35,468 nt of DNA, taken from assembly GCA_035316325.1 (NCBI GenBank), contig DATHJB010000157.1, positions 1-35,468 of the forward strand. Direction: 5' to 3'. This document shows positions 1 to 19,814 of the stretch, piece after piece. Every line of letters starts with the position of its first letter. Positions within the stretch are counted from its first letter, which is position 1. Below the pieces are notes generated by a model that ran no database searches, was not told where the DNA came from, and saw only the letters and a list, made by a program, of their open reading frames with translations. Source of the stretch: Acidimicrobiales bacterium. Lineage in GTDB: Bacteria > Actinomycetota > Acidimicrobiia > Acidimicrobiales > VFJN01. The position numbers and the translations under genes are program-made.

Positions 1-460
1 CGCCCACGTCGACCACCAGGCTGGCGGTGGGCTCGGTGATGGGCAGCCCGCAGCCGATCGCCGCCGCCATGGGCTGCTCGATCAGGAACGTCTCGTTGGC
101 GCCCGCCCGCCGGGCCGCCTCGCGCACGGCCCGCCGCTCCACCTCGGTGATGGCGGTGGGCACGCACAGCACCACCCGGGGACGACCGAAGCGCCCGTGG
201 CGCACCCGCGACAGCAGCAACCGCAGCATGCGCTGGGTCACCTCGAAGTCGGTGATCGCCCCGTGGCGCAGCGGGCGCTCGGCCACGATGTCGCTGGGGG
301 TGCGGCCCATCATCTGCCAGGCGTCGTGGCCCATCGCCAGCACCTCGTGGGTGCGGCGGTTGAGGGCGATGACGGTCGGCTCGTTGAGGACGATGCCCTT
401 GCCCCGCTCGTAGACCAGCGTGTTGGCCGTGCCGAGGTCGATCGCCAGGTCGCGGGCCAT
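1..460 (-). CDS. mreB: Rod shape-determining protein MreB (N-terminal part, cut by window edge)
   Basis: Bacterial actin homologue that forms membrane-associated filaments guiding cell-wall synthesis. About 153 N-terminal residues are visible. They begin MARDLAIDLGTANTLVYERG, the MreB phosphate-1 loop (DLGTANT), followed by LNEPTVIAL, the segment GRTPSDIVAERPLRHGAITDF, VVLCVPTAITEVERRAVREAA and IEQPMAAAIGCGLPI, all in the usual MreB order. The C-terminal half, with the rest of the nucleotide-binding site, lies outside the window. The ATG at 460 shares one base with the stop of the upstream 51-residue membrane protein (TGATG), so the two are probably translationally coupled. It is the last visible gene of a moaE / small membrane protein / mreB operon. 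Identification is firm; which mreB paralogue it is cannot be told from here. Confidence 0.93.
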   Translation of the reverse strand, partial: MARDLAIDLGTANTLVYERGKGIVLNEPTVIALNRRTHEVLAMGHDAWQMMGRTPSDIVAERPLRHGAITDFEVTQRMLRLLLSRVRHGRFGRPRVVLCVPTAITEVERRAVREAARRAGANETFLIEQPMAAAIGCGLPITEPTASLVVDVG

Positions 461-1084: not shown

Positions 1085-2245
1085 GTGCCGTTCGATGACG
1101 ACGCGGCTGACGACGTCACCGGTTTCGGTCCGCCACCACATCCAGATGATCGGCTCTGGCGTCACCCGTCGGAGATGGTCGGCTCCGGACCTCGGAGCGC
1201 GCACGCCCCGGCGTCCGCGCACCGCTGGCCCTGGGGTCTGGTCGCTGGTGCCGGCACCGTCGGGGTGATGCTGATCGGCATAGGGCTCCTCGCCTTCGGG
1301 ATGCGCGACCGCGTGACACCGCGGCGCGCCGCGGCGCCACTCGACATCGCCGGGCTCGCCTCGGGGCCGCTCACGTCGTTCGACTCCTCCGGCCTCTTCA
1401 GCGGCCCGCCGCTGGGCAACCGCGAGGCCCGCGACGTGGCGCCCAGCGTCGTCCGCATCGAGGGCGCGGGCACCGGCTCGGGCGTGATCGTGCGGAGCGA
1501 CGGCATCGTGCTCACCAGCGCTCAGCTGGTCGGCAGCCTCCCCGACGTCAACGTGACGCTCGACGACGGCACCTCCCAGACGGCCACCATCCGTGGCACC
1601 GACCCGGTCACCGGCCTCGCCGTCGTCGACCTGCCCGGCGAGGGGTTCACGCCGGCCGACCTCGTGGCCCCCGACGGCCTGGCCCCCGGCGGCACCGTGC
1701 TCTGCGCCGGCGTGAACGACGACGGCTTCACCACGGCGCCCGGCACCCTCACCAAGCCGCTGACCCACACCACCACGCCCGAGGGCGACCCGGTCGACGG
1801 CGTCCTCCAGATCACCCCGCAGACCACCACCTACCCCACCATGCTGGGCAGCGCGGTGGTCGACGGCAGCGGCGCGATGCTGGCGCTCACAACCTGGACC
1901 GACAGCCTCTCCTACTACGCCACCCCGATGAAGGTGGCCGCCAAGGTCGCCGACGACCTGCTGGCGACCGGCTCGGCCCGGCACGCCTGGGTGGGCATCC
2001 TCGGCACCGACGCCCCTGGTGGAGGTGTGCAGCTCACCGAGGTCGACCCCGACGGGCCCGCCGCCGGGAGCCTGCAGGTCGCCGACGTGATCACCGAGCT
2101 CGACGGCAGGCGGATCGCCGACATGTCGACGCTGGTGAGCCGCCTGCAGCTCAAGAGCCCCGAAGACCGGGTCGACGTGACCTACCAGCGCGACGGCGTC
2201 ACCGCCGAGACCGAGCTGGTTCTGTCTTCGCTCAGCCCGGAATAG
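1085..2245 (+). CDS. Membrane-anchored HtrA-like pseudoprotease with PDZ domain
   Basis: 386 residues with HtrA/DegP (S1C) layout: a cytoplasmic N-terminus with a DDRLWRHPSEM motif (21-31), one transmembrane helix (about 51-71), a trypsin-like domain (about 115-275) and a C-terminal PDZ domain (about 297-385). All three catalytic positions are replaced. The TNAHV histidine is Gln147 (VLTSAQLVG), the DLAV aspartate is Gly177 (TGLAVVD) and the GNSGGP serine is Leu254 (PTMLGSAVVD). The intact HtrA at 18409-19680 shows the normal residues. The reading frame is clean, so this looks like a maintained non-enzymatic homologue rather than a decaying gene. A role as a peptide-binding scaffold or regulator outside the membrane is inference. 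The GTG at 1085 follows a TATCCT box by 6 nt. The gene ends inside a convergent terminator. Confidence 0.85.
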   Translation: MPFDDDAADDVTGFGPPPHPDDRLWRHPSEMVGSGPRSAHAPASAHRWPWGLVAGAGTVGVMLIGIGLLAFGMRDRVTPRRAAAPLDIAGLASGPLTSFDSSGLFSGPPLGNREARDVAPSVVRIEGAGTGSGVIVRSDGIVLTSAQLVGSLPDVNVTLDDGTSQTATIRGTDPVTGLAVVDLPGEGFTPADLVAPDGLAPGGTVLCAGVNDDGFTTAPGTLTKPLTHTTTPEGDPVDGVLQITPQTTTYPTMLGSAVVDGSGAMLALTTWTDSLSYYATPMKVAAKVADDLLATGSARHAWVGILGTDAPGGGVQLTEVDPDGPAAGSLQVADVITELDGRRIADMSTLVSRLQLKSPEDRVDVTYQRDGVTAETELVLSSLSPE

Positions 2246-2269: not shown

Positions 2270-3253
2270 TCAGCGGCGGGGCGCGAGCCAGCGGCGCACG
2301 GCCCAGGCCGCGCCCACCGCGGCGCCCGCGACGCTCACACCGGCCACGCCCAACGCCAGCTCCTGGCGCCGGCGGGGGCTCAGCGTGGCCCAGGGACCGG
2401 CCTCGTGGGACTCGACCCAGGCCTCCTCGCTGGAGGTCGCCGGCGTCCAACCGGCCGAGCGCAGCGCGTCGCTGGCCACCACCCACGAGTGCAGGGTGTA
2501 GGGCACCAGCTCGGGCGGTGTCGGACCCAGGCCCGAGCGGAACCGCCAGCGGGCGAACCGGTCGGCCAGCTGCTCCGGCAGGCGCACCCGCGGGCCGACG
2601 CCGGTCAGCGACCGCACCTCGTCGCCGGAGATGGCCTGCTCGGGGGCCACGTTGAAGGCGCCGTCGAGCCGCTTGGTACGGGCCAGGGTGACGGCCGACG
2701 CCAGGTCGTCGAGGTGCAGGAACTGCACCGGCGGCTCCACCGCCAGCTCGGGCACCGCCGGCGCCGGGCGCAGCGCCCGGATCAGCCAGTCGTTGCGGCC
2801 GGGGGTGCGCACCGGGCGCAGGATCGTCACCGTGCTGCCGGGGTGGGCGTCGCGCCACTCGCCGGCCAGGCGCTCCAGCTCGGCCCGCTCGGTGGCGTAG
2901 GTGAAGCCGGGGTTGGGGCGCAGGACGGCCTCGTCGGTGAGCGGGACCGGGTTGTTGGGCCAGGCGCCGTAGACGGTGGCGTCGGACAGCATGACCAGGT
3001 GCTGGACGCTGGCGTCGCCGGCGGCGTCGAGCAGGCGGCGGGTGGCGTCGACGTCGGCCGTGGCACCCGTGGGCGACTGGGGGGTGCCGGTGGCGAGGTG
3101 CAGCACGGACTCGGTGCCGTCGAGCGGGTTCTTCAGGTCACCCCCGAGCACGTCGCCCAGCTCACGGACCTCGGCGTGCTCCCCGTCGGCCAGCAGGCTC
3201 CGCACTTTCCGACCCAACGGGGTATCTGCACCCGTGACCGCGACAGCAACCAT
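2270..3253 (-). CDS. NAD(P)-binding SDR / epimerase-like protein with C-terminal membrane helix
   Basis: 327 residues of the extended short-chain dehydrogenase/epimerase type. It has an N-terminal Rossmann motif (VAVTGADTPLGRKV, a TGxxxxxG variant), HLATGTPQSP, SDATVYG near residue 90, a TYATERAE segment at Tyr119, LRPVRTPG and FLHLDDLASAV. The YxxxK lysine is replaced by Arg123 (Y-A-T-E-R). Residues about 298-318 form a hydrophobic Ala/Gly/Val helix followed by RRWLAPRR, so the protein is probably tethered to the membrane by its C-terminus. I chose the ATG at 3253 because AAAGG lies 8 nt upstream; an ATG at 3271 would add six residues. Substrate is unknown. Because of the Arg, it may bind a nucleotide without classical redox activity. 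Confidence 0.82.
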   Translation of the reverse strand: MVAVAVTGADTPLGRKVRSLLADGEHAEVRELGDVLGGDLKNPLDGTESVLHLATGTPQSPTGATADVDATRRLLDAAGDASVQHLVMLSDATVYGAWPNNPVPLTDEAVLRPNPGFTYATERAELERLAGEWRDAHPGSTVTILRPVRTPGRNDWLIRALRPAPAVPELAVEPPVQFLHLDDLASAVTLARTKRLDGAFNVAPEQAISGDEVRSLTGVGPRVRLPEQLADRFARWRFRSGLGPTPPELVPYTLHSWVVASDALRSAGWTPATSSEEAWVESHEAGPWATLSPRRRQELALGVAGVSVAGAAVGAAWAVRRWLAPRR

Positions 3254-3265
3254 CGTCTCTACCTT

Positions 3266-3271
3266 TACCAT
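3266..3271 (+). promoter_or_regulatory. -10 box for the DUF2342 zincin gene
   Basis: TACCAT followed by 8 nt and the GTG at 3280, with no ribosome-binding site between them. A second candidate, TACCTT, lies at 3260-3265. The box overlaps the start region of the divergent SDR gene. Confidence 0.45.
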
Positions 3272-3279
3272 GCTCTGTT

Positions 3280-4518
3280 GTGAGTGGTCCTACTGGCCCC
3301 GGCAACCCCTTCGAGGGAATGCCCTTCTTCGGTGACATCGCAAAGCTCCTGGGCTCGGGCGGTGGTGTGCCGTGGGATGCCGCCCGCAGCCTGGCGCTGT
3401 CCATCGCCACCGACGGGCAGAGCGAGCCGAACGTCGAGCCGACCGAGCGCATCAAGCTGGAGCAGCTCGCCCGGGTCGCGGAGCTGCAGGTCGCCCACGT
3501 CACGGGCCTGTCGCCCTCCGTCGGCGGCCGGGACCTGACGGTGATGCCGGTCAACCGGGCGCTGTGGGCCACCCGCACGCTCGAGGCCTACCGGCCGCTC
3601 CTCGAACGCCTCGCCAACGCCCTGCGCGCCCAGCCCGACCAGGACACCACCGACCCCGAGGGCCTCCCGGCCGACCCGTCGATGGTCTCCCAGGAGGACC
3701 AGTTCGCGGCGATGCTCGGGCCGATGCTGCAGGCCATGCAGCCCACGATGGTGGCGATGATGGCCGGCTCGATGGTCGGCCACCTGGCCCGCACCTCGTT
3801 CGGCCAGTACGACCTGCCCATCCCCCGGCCGGCGTCCGACGAGCTGGTGATCGTGATGCCGAACCTCGTCGAGTTCGGCGACGAGTGGAGCCTCCCGCCC
3901 GACGACCTGCGCCTGTGGATCTGCGTCCACGAGATCGCCCACCACACCGTGCTCGGCGTGCCGCACGTGCGCCAGCAGCTCGACGAGCTGATCGGCGAGT
4001 TCGCCGCCGGCTTCCGCAACGACCCCGACGCCCTCAGCGACCAGCTCGGGGCCATCGAGGAGAGCGCCGACGACCCGAGCGTCGACCTGCTCGACCGCAT
4101 CCGTCGGGCCATCGGCGAGCCCGGTGCGTTGATCGGCGCCATCCAGTCCGACGAGCAGCGGCGGCTGAAGCCCCAGCTGGAGGCGCTGCTCGCCGTGGTC
4201 GTGGGCGTCGTCGACCACATCATGGACCAGGTGGGCGAGAAGCTCATCGGCAGCTACGGCATGCTCACCGAGGCGCTGCGGCGTCGCCGGGTGGCCACGT
4301 CGGAGGCCGACCGCTTCGTGGAGCGCATGCTGGGCCTGGAGCTCACCCAGTCGACCTACGACCGGGGCACGGCGTTCGTCGACGGCGTGGTGGAGCGGGC
4401 CGGCGAGGACGGCCTGGCCCGTCTGTGGGAGTCGAAGCGCAACCTCCCCAGTCCCCCCGAGGTCGACGCCCCGGGCCTGTGGCTGGCGCGCATCGACCTG
4501 CCCGCCACCGACGACTGA
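3280..4518 (+). CDS. Zinc-dependent metalloprotease-like protein, DUF2342/Zincin_2 family
   Basis: 412 residues. The zinc-binding HExxH motif is intact at His217-Glu218-x-x-His221 (CVHEIAHHTVL) in a long, mainly helical protein, as in the actinobacterial family annotated as a zincin or F420 biosynthesis-associated hydrolase. Other visible parts are a Gly/Pro-rich N-terminus, a methionine-rich helix (GPMLQAMQPTMVAMMAGSMV, about 147-166) and DELVIVMPNLVEF leading to the motif. There is no signal peptide, so it is probably cytoplasmic or peripheral. The true substrate of this family is, to my knowledge, not established. The GTG start is favoured by a TACCAT box 8 nt upstream. The stop lies 19 bp from the stop of the convergent MFS gene. 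Confidence 0.85.
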   Translation: MSGPTGPGNPFEGMPFFGDIAKLLGSGGGVPWDAARSLALSIATDGQSEPNVEPTERIKLEQLARVAELQVAHVTGLSPSVGGRDLTVMPVNRALWATRTLEAYRPLLERLANALRAQPDQDTTDPEGLPADPSMVSQEDQFAAMLGPMLQAMQPTMVAMMAGSMVGHLARTSFGQYDLPIPRPASDELVIVMPNLVEFGDEWSLPPDDLRLWICVHEIAHHTVLGVPHVRQQLDELIGEFAAGFRNDPDALSDQLGAIEESADDPSVDLLDRIRRAIGEPGALIGAIQSDEQRRLKPQLEALLAVVVGVVDHIMDQVGEKLIGSYGMLTEALRRRRVATSEADRFVERMLGLELTQSTYDRGTAFVDGVVERAGEDGLARLWESKRNLPSPPEVDAPGLWLARIDLPATDD

Positions 4519-4537: not shown

Positions 4538-6103
4538 CTAGAGGTTCGTCGGGTCGACCACGACCGTCGTGTCGTCGCTGCTCCGTGCCGGAGGCGGCGG
4601 TGGGGGTGGTGGGGGCGGCGGCGGAGGAGGAGGGGGCGGAGGTGGCGGCGGCGGGGGCATCGCCGTGGCCGTCTCGACCGCGACCTCGACCTCGGTGCCG
4701 GACGACGGCGACGCGGTCGGGGGGTTGGGCGGGGGGTTGGGGGACTTCTCGGTGAGGCGGGCCGGGCGGCGGCCGTCGAGGCGCTTCTCGCGGATGCGGT
4801 CGAAGCCCTGGCGGGCCTTGCGGAGGGCCCGGGCCCGGGTGTCGAGGCTCCGGGACGGGACGGGTTTGCCGGCGGCCACGGCCTTCGCCCCGGCCACGTA
4901 GGACAGGAGGGCGAAGGCGGCCGCGCCCGACACGAACAGGAAGCCGAGGCGGGACGGGATCTCCAGGCGGCTCGGGACCATGACCGGGATCAGGGCGCCG
5001 ATCACCCAGATCAGCTGGAACCGGGTCTCGAAGCGGGCGAAGGAACGACCCCGGTTGGCGTCCGGGGCGTCACGCTGGAGGATCGAGTCGAACGCCAGCT
5101 TCGACCCGCTGGCCGCCAGGCCCACCGCCAACGCCATCACCAGGGCGCCGGGGAAGCGACCGACGTACGCGGCCACCACGGCGATCGCCGCGGTGACCCC
5201 CAGGAACAGCTGGATGATCTTCTCCTCGCCCACCGCGCTCTTGCGCAGTGCCGGAGCCACCGCGGCGCCGCTCAGCGCGCCGATGCCGTTGGCGGCCAGG
5301 ATCACGCCGAACTGCCACGTCGGGGCGTCGGCGCGGCGCAGGTCGAAGGCGATCAGGAACGTGATGAAGCCGACGACGCCCCGCAGCAGACCCATGGCGG
5401 AGGCCGCCAGCAGGATGCCGGCGCCCCGCAGCTCGTCGCGCTCGATCGTGTCCTCGCGATCGGGGGCCACCCGCGTCGCCGGGATCTGGGTGCCGGCCAC
5501 GGCAGCCACCCCGAACACCGTCCCCGCCAGCACCATCACCCCGCCCCCGCCGAACAGCACGTTGGCCAACAGGCCCGGCACCGCCGCCACGAACCCCATC
5601 ACGCCCGACAGCAGCGACAGCTTCGAGTTCGACTCCACCAGCTCCTCGTCGGAGCTCACCAACGTCGGCACCAGCGCCGACTTGGCCACCGAGTAGGCCT
5701 TCGACAGCACCAGCACCGCGAACACCTCGGGGAACAGCAGCAGGCTGTCGAGGTGGCCGATCATCAGCACGCAGATCACCGAGCGGAGGGCGTTGGCCCC
5801 GACGACGACCCAGCGCCGGCCTCCCTGCACCCGGTCGAGCCACGGGCCGATCAGCGGGGCGACCAACGAGAACGGCGCCATCGTCAGGATCAGGCCCAGC
5901 GCCACCCGTTCCTTCGCCTGGGTGGGGCTGATCGAGAAGAACAACGAGCCCGCCAGCGCCAGGGCGATCAGCGTGTCGCCGGCCACGGCGGCGGCGTGCG
6001 TGCGTGCCAGCCGCGTGAACGGGGACACCACGAAGGCCGAGGCGCCCGAACGCCGCTGGGCGATCGGCTGCCAGCCCTTGGTGTCGTCGTCGCTCACCGC
6101 CAT
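4538..6103 (-). CDS. MFS transporter with 23-proline run in cytoplasmic tail
   Basis: 521 residues. About 400 residues form a major-facilitator-type membrane domain with many hydrophobic helices. A motif-A-like GPWLDRVQGGRRW lies between helices 2 and 3. The substrate cannot be inferred. After the last helix comes a basic segment (RALRKARQGFDRIREKR), then NPPPNPP, an acidic/Thr stretch and an uninterrupted run of 23 prolines (DNA 4589-4657), ending ARSSDDTTVVVDPTNL. The run uses all four proline codons irregularly, which argues against simple slippage. Translation across it should depend on EF-P. The ATG at 6103 follows a TACCCT box by 7 nt, and a 53-bp repeat sits just upstream. Start and family are secure; the role of the tail is unknown. 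Confidence 0.85.
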   Translation of the reverse strand: MAVSDDDTKGWQPIAQRRSGASAFVVSPFTRLARTHAAAVAGDTLIALALAGSLFFSISPTQAKERVALGLILTMAPFSLVAPLIGPWLDRVQGGRRWVVVGANALRSVICVLMIGHLDSLLLFPEVFAVLVLSKAYSVAKSALVPTLVSSDEELVESNSKLSLLSGVMGFVAAVPGLLANVLFGGGGVMVLAGTVFGVAAVAGTQIPATRVAPDREDTIERDELRGAGILLAASAMGLLRGVVGFITFLIAFDLRRADAPTWQFGVILAANGIGALSGAAVAPALRKSAVGEEKIIQLFLGVTAAIAVVAAYVGRFPGALVMALAVGLAASGSKLAFDSILQRDAPDANRGRSFARFETRFQLIWVIGALIPVMVPSRLEIPSRLGFLFVSGAAAFALLSYVAGAKAVAAGKPVPSRSLDTRARALRKARQGFDRIREKRLDGRRPARLTEKSPNPPPNPPTASPSSGTEVEVAVETATAMPPPPPPPPPPPPPPPPPPPPPPPARSSDDTTVVVDPTNL

Positions 6104-18408: not shown

Positions 18409-19680
<1,272 letters not shown>

Positions 19681-19814
19681 GGTTACCGCTTCGAACGCCG
19701 GTTGCGTAAGCGCGGCACGTCTCTCCGGCGTGTGGGTGGAGAAGAGTCGAAAAAAGGGGGAACCGATCGCGGTCGCCAACCGTAGAAAGGACATCCCTCA
19801 TTAACGGAGGACAG

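Follow-up and report, generated by a model that had tools for sequence, protein, structure and literature searches.

By alignment and fold, the gene at positions 1085–2245 (+ strand) of the window, the stretch of 35,468 nucleotides from an Acidimicrobiales bacterium analysed here, encodes an HtrA-type membrane protein that has no catalytic triad. We propose that its product is a non-proteolytic single-pass membrane adaptor, in which a short N-terminal motif, predicted to lie in the cytosol, docks a putative partner; we assign this reading a probability of roughly 60%. The comparison of orthologues suggests that the tail bearing this motif, rather than proteolysis, is the reason the gene is kept.

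The gene starts with GTG, encodes 386 residues, and is open throughout its frame. Pfam assigned residues 131–268 to Trypsin_2 (53.4 bits) and the C-terminus to PDZ_2 (43.3 bits). An AlphaFold2 model calculated from a 26-sequence alignment (mean pLDDT 80) retained the two-barrel fold and the PDZ domain, and was confident over residues 111–380 (pLDDT mostly above 90). The first Foldseek matches to this model were PepD of Mycobacterium tuberculosis (the top match, 2z9i, with an E-value of 4.8e-23), plant Deg1, DegS, and DegQ. Trypsin_2 and the matches to PepD, DegS, and DegQ identify a chymotrypsin-like fold of the HtrA/Deg (S1C) type in a degenerate trypsin-like domain at residues 112–290 (1418–1954, + strand). 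As expected of this type, it is followed by a hinge and a C-terminal PDZ domain at residues 296–380 (1970–2224, + strand; pLDDT 93–98), a domain that some family members do not have.

The His-Asp-Ser triad of this type is absent. Alignment with the intact HtrA of the window (18409–19794, − strand) and with orthologues carrying H-D-S placed Gln147 (1523–1525, + strand) at the position of the catalytic His, Gly177 (1613–1615, + strand) at that of the Asp, and Leu254 (1844–1846, + strand) at that of the Ser; the sequence TMLGS is the counterpart of the oxyanion-hole GNSGG. The protein did not reach the NCBIfam cut-offs for HtrA, DegS, and DegP (best 77.3 bits against 416.2), and the intact-triad member L008 was also under the NCBIfam cut-off (262 bits). 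The protein is a pseudoprotease in the sense of a protease homologue whose essential catalytic residues are lost. These results bear out the sequence-only reading of this DNA, which had reported the replacement of all three catalytic residues in an open frame with the barrel fold and PDZ domain preserved. The assembly (6.37 Mb) encodes five further trypsin-like proteins according to Pfam, and the catalytic motifs, read in three of them, are all intact.

Catalysis through replaced or relocated residues is extremely improbable. Some members retain part of the triad (E-D-S in L086, Q-D-S in L022, and H-D-A in L247), as might be expected of a cryptic protease. However, the barrel of the window protein has no His elsewhere in a catalytic place, the alignments revealed no substitute nucleophile or other replacement residue common to the triad-less orthologues, the catalytic loops differ in length and sequence, and most of the domain is missing in some members. 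A realignment placing a catalytic Ser or His elsewhere had been named as a way to overturn the triad loss, and the loss withstands it.

A similarity search of the order gave matches in 181 of 248 genomes; a GTDB contig scan gave 218 relatives, and 80 loci were fetched. Orthologues occupy the same locus through the order, and same-locus members bearing the motif extend to further orders of the class Acidimicrobiia. The taxonomy of the family loci is that of the GTDB record titles, nearly all of which name Acidimicrobiia or Actinobacteria. Metagenome-assembled genomes titled Bifidobacterium breve (L048, L058, L066, and L110) carry the acidimicrobial locus, and these titles are evidently wrong.

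Among the 112 aligned orthologues of the order, 41 keep H-D-S and 71 have lost it, and two of the 38 further class-wide same-locus members keep it (L237 and L238). The replacements are varied (QGL, AGL, RDG, DDP, DDD, RDS, QDS, SGL, PGA, and others). The best tree, for which HtrA paralogues served as the root, needs no fewer than five losses; at least three are required by well-supported branches alone, and about nine if single residues were never regained. A second tree built without the catalytic loops again gave five losses, a count that could fall, since long triad-less branches may group falsely. By these trees, triad loss is recurrent, not recent. Intact-triad orthologues had been named as the sign of a recent loss, and the outcome is mixed: they exist, and the loss is derived, but it occurred several times, and that of the window protein is common to L089 (Ala-Gly-Leu), from a different genus of the same family. 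Judged by their residues, some 40% of the orthologues aligned in the order may have remained active proteases; catalysis would therefore matter in some lineages, which counts against the adaptor reading.

In the alignments, no other element of the family comes close in conservation to the N-terminal motif DDRLWRHPSE (residues 21–30; 1145–1174, + strand). The peptide bearing its residues W25 and H27 is PHPDDRLWRHPSEM. The family consensus is [DE]-D-R-x-W-x-H-P-[STA]-E, which extends to P-x-[DE]-D-R-x-W-x-H-P-[STA]-E-[hydrophobic]. In alignment A1, D22, R23, W25, R26, H27, P28, and E30 are all invariant. W25, H27, P28, and E30 are 100% conserved in the 112 aligned orthologues, both the intact and the triad-less, whose identity outside the motif is about 30%. 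The mean frequency of the majority residue in the triad-less group was 0.95 in the motif, 0.42 in the protease domain, 0.48 in the catalytic loops, and 0.49 in the hinge and PDZ domain.

The 80 GTDB loci and the 38 class-wide members were gathered by the motif, and its conservation there is by construction; it is informative in two sets only. The first consists of 31 members recovered through protein similarity alone, all of which carry WxHP[SA]E. The second was obtained by reaching the locus via Zincin_2 in 43 genomes of the order without the exact DNA motif; WxHP[SA]E was present in 16 of 16 readable N-termini of these orthologues, and the triad in none of the 16. The strict motif is present in 56 of 99 genomes, as a single copy in each apart from one genome with a second, chance-like match; the reversed control pattern had no match. 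In the other classes of the phylum, it was present in one of about 180 sampled genomes, in a spurious frame of 48 codons. Two other WxHPxE-like matches in the window's own genome both lie in short or implausible frames. The motif was also considered as a common docking code of other proteins, and this was rejected, as the remaining matches show no sign of real genes.

The codons of the motif vary freely (CGN and AGR for Arg, TCN and AGY for Ser, and every Pro codon). Constraint therefore acts on the protein and not on DNA or RNA, and a reason for the motif at the nucleic-acid level is ruled out. Ser29 is exchanged with Thr; despite this exchange, Ala stands at the position in 8 of 134 sequences, which makes an obligatory phospho-site unlikely. 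The earlier suggestion that this motif may serve for docking gains from its place as the most conserved family element. AlphaFold gave the motif low confidence in the window protein, and in the very degenerate member L163 a helix begins at the motif Pro. These models fit a short linear motif, a loop and then the start of a helix, that would fold on its partner.

A transmembrane helix spans residues 53–70 (1241–1294, + strand) in the AlphaFold model, and its predicted orientation is N-in/C-out. The mean net charge of the family is +2.5 before the helix and −0.1 after it, and 82% of members are more positive before it. Because positive charge precedes the helix, the prediction places the motif in the cytosol and the HtrA module outside.

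A relaxed motif search across the class revealed family f7 loci that had not been seen by the HMM. The shrunken members of family f7 have 185–305 residues, keep the motif and the transmembrane helix, and are encoded between MoaE and the SDR. In L226, L227, L229, and L230, the PDZ domain is gone and the protease domain is a remnant, with motif, transmembrane helix, and locus kept. L173, which has hardly any PDZ domain and a protease remnant, was detected by the relaxed motif only, at a locus that the HMM had scored as empty. L231 has the motif, the transmembrane helix, and the PDZ domain but no trypsin domain. Pfam found Trypsin_2 in 26 and PDZ_2 in 32 of the 37 class members. The motif and the transmembrane helix are the sole parts present in every member.

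These shrunken members bear on the possibility that the protein is an inactive HtrA partner, which enters HtrA trimers, titrates them, or uses its PDZ domain to bind the peptides that HtrA binds. We regard this as very doubtful. Most members keep the fold and the PDZ domain, and intact HtrAs are encoded in the same genome, which would favor such a role. However, the gene and its motif are kept in members with only a protease remnant and no PDZ domain, no HtrA gene is generally linked to it (the two are far apart in G008 and G093), and the best-conserved stretch has a predicted place in the cytosol, on the membrane side opposite to the HtrA module. The same evidence leaves the earlier suggestions of titration or regulation of HtrA unsupported, and the shrunken members exclude peptide binding or HtrA hetero-oligomers as a function common to the family.

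The family gene is missing from the locus in about 15 genomes checked (at least a dozen), as scored by an HMM with which greatly reduced members go undetected, and it is therefore dispensable, which likewise weighs against the adaptor reading. At L157, L158, L160, L161, L162, L164, L166, L167, L172, L177–L180, and L190, MoaE is followed directly by the SDR or Zincin_2, with the gene absent or unrecognisable. These absences, and the disappearance of the triad, the PDZ domain, and the protease domain in different lineages, are what would be seen if a dispensable membrane HtrA were drifting to loss with the motif merely the slowest part to go. We consider such decay unlikely, since the frame is closed in 80 of 80 GTDB loci, the promoter is conserved, triad-less pairs are under purifying selection, and the motif's W, H, P, and E are unchanged in 112 otherwise divergent orthologues; neutral drift would not spare ten residues.

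A TANNNT box just before the start codon is a mark of leaderless actinobacterial mRNA. In the window, the leaderless −10 element TATCCT (1073–1078, + strand) lies 6 nt before the GTG. Of 81 family genes, 76 have TANNNT 5–8 nt ahead of the start codon, compared with 3 of 1716 internal mock starts, and 46 of 47 triad-less genes have the box. Among close pairs with dS below about 1.2, several of which share branches and from which two L010 pairs were left out, dN/dS was mostly 0.09–0.37 in triad-less pairs (0.43–0.53 in two more divergent ones) and 0.07–0.30 in intact-triad pairs. In the protease domain, the closer triad-less pairs gave 0.07–0.24. All these values concern relatives only, the nearest relative of the window protein being 39% identical to it. 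A recent pseudogene is ruled out by the closed frames, dN/dS, and promoter conservation, and the same three observations on its relatives, namely closed frames, purifying selection in close triad-less pairs, and the conserved promoter, corroborate the view of the window protein as a pseudoprotease maintained by selection.

The gene order of the locus is MreB paralogue, small transmembrane protein, MoaE, the pseudoprotease gene (divergent from MoaE), the SDR, and the Zincin_2 metalloprotease. The family gene has MoaE upstream on the opposite strand and Zincin_2 downstream, with the SDR between. The MoaE gene (612–1028, − strand; Pfam MoaE, 131 bits) is a neighbour in 73 of 80 loci, the SDR/NAD-dependent epimerase gene (2270–3271, − strand; Pfam) in 66, the gene for the Zincin_2 metallopeptidase with an intact HExxH (3280–4518, + strand; 233 bits in Pfam) in 71, and that for the small single-pass protein (460–615, − strand) in 49; many of the loci scored without MoaE, the SDR, or Zincin_2 end at contig ends. 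With its motif and transmembrane helix at this MoaE/SDR/Zincin_2 locus, the window gene belongs to the DRxWxHPSE family. Orthology holds whatever the triad state, because synteny and similarity both support it. Beyond the metallopeptidase, an MFS transporter homologue (4538–6103, − strand) carries a very long poly-proline run (over 20 residues) close to the C-terminus, G-rich on the + strand. A YlbL-like membrane protein (PDZ-Lon type, recognised by eye only) is encoded 2–4 kb past MoaE in L158, L161, L162, L164, L168, L174, and others, and shares the MoaE/Zincin_2 neighbourhood in many genomes.

The MreB paralogue of the window (2–460, − strand) is represented by its N-terminal 153 residues, the gene being cut by the contig end, and was recognised from its translation and from the neighbours in L119 and L173. 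The paralogue at the locus scores about 420–440 bits (MreB_Mbl; full-length neighbours in L119 and L173, 419–428 bits) and the canonical MreB elsewhere in the genome about 490 bits; genomes of the order carry two MreBs. The motif could bind this paralogue, whose gene is about 1 kb away, and link it to the envelope in the manner of RodZ, an MreB-binding single-pass protein. By hand count, no more than about 2.5 kb separates the paralogue from the gene in at least 43 genomes, and the paralogue is also found beside the truncated L173. The resemblance to RodZ (a single transmembrane helix, a predicted inside N-terminus, and a gene near an MreB gene) may be taken as a works-like analogy only. However, this closeness may merely reflect a stable locus, the cytosolic HTH domain of RodZ is absent (Pfam has no match in the N-terminus of the window protein), and there is no co-loss: loci without the gene still hold the paralogue (L157/G100, L162/G031, L166/G091, and L172/G010). 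Such a cytoskeletal tether is quite improbable. The MreB paralogue was rejected as an obligatory partner because it persists at loci without the gene, and is a candidate only.

We favor the reading of the protein as a membrane adaptor. Its ancestor would have been a membrane-anchored HtrA protease with a cytosolic N-terminal motif, which in Acidimicrobiia would have become the maintained function, with catalysis optional. The triad was lost several times, and some lineages also shed the PDZ domain and most of the protease domain. The motif, a loop followed by a short helix that immediately precedes the transmembrane helix, would dock a cytosolic partner, and the outer module, where kept, may serve as a ligand-binding or anchoring domain. 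A bolder, class-wide version, in which an HtrA protease stripped to a transmembrane anchor with a new docking motif recruits a conserved partner, possibly the adjacent MreB paralogue, and thereby couples the envelope to the cytoskeleton, seems to us unlikely as a whole.

This analysis also provides insights into how an enzyme may turn into a scaffold, as the family would represent a natural series of this change. One locus holds intact HtrAs, triad-less proteins, and proteins left with almost none of the protease or PDZ domain, and throughout the motif, predicted on the opposite side of the membrane, is fixed. The adaptor reading predicts that the cytosolic motif is the essential part and that a binding partner must exist. 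Annotation pipelines would misname most members by calling them HtrA or S1C proteases. Should the linked MreB paralogue prove to be the partner, a new question would arise on cell shape or envelope stress in Acidimicrobiia. Our literature search found no paper containing LWRHPSE and no work on an HtrA pseudoprotease of Acidimicrobiia, on this bacterial family, or on the motif. Pseudoproteases are already known as a kind; the role of the motif may turn out to be newer.

Membrane-anchored HtrA proteases (MEROPS clan PA, family S1) include DegS of E. coli and PepD (Rv0983) and HtrA (Rv1223) of M. tuberculosis. Like these, the window protein has a single transmembrane anchor, a chymotrypsin-like fold, and one C-terminal PDZ domain; the enzyme module of membrane HtrAs is outside, as is predicted for the DRxWxHPSE family, and their H-D-S is shared by about 40% of the orthologues aligned in the order. 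In contrast, the window protein and most members are without the triad, and the family adds a motif on the cytosolic side. The window protein also differs from DegS and HtrA in scoring far under the cut-offs of the NCBIfam models.

HtrA homologues with a mutated triad are kept in plant and algal genomes, among them AtDeg16, OsDegP1/11/14, and the second domain of AtDeg7 (PMC3473262). These inactive Deg/HtrA proteins are eukaryotic, and the accessible text of that paper describes neither a comparable cytosolic motif, nor a stepwise loss of domains, nor intact and inactive orthologues that form a series in synteny. Pseudoenzymes that serve protein–protein interaction or scaffolding have been reviewed for inactive metallopeptidase homologues (PMC11266112). 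The pseudopeptidases treated in the accessible part of that review are metallopeptidases, whereas the present family has active protease and pseudoprotease orthologues at one locus. Compared with the pseudopeptidases described there, the DRxWxHPSE family appears distinct in that the enzyme domain can be lost while a short motif beyond its bounds persists.
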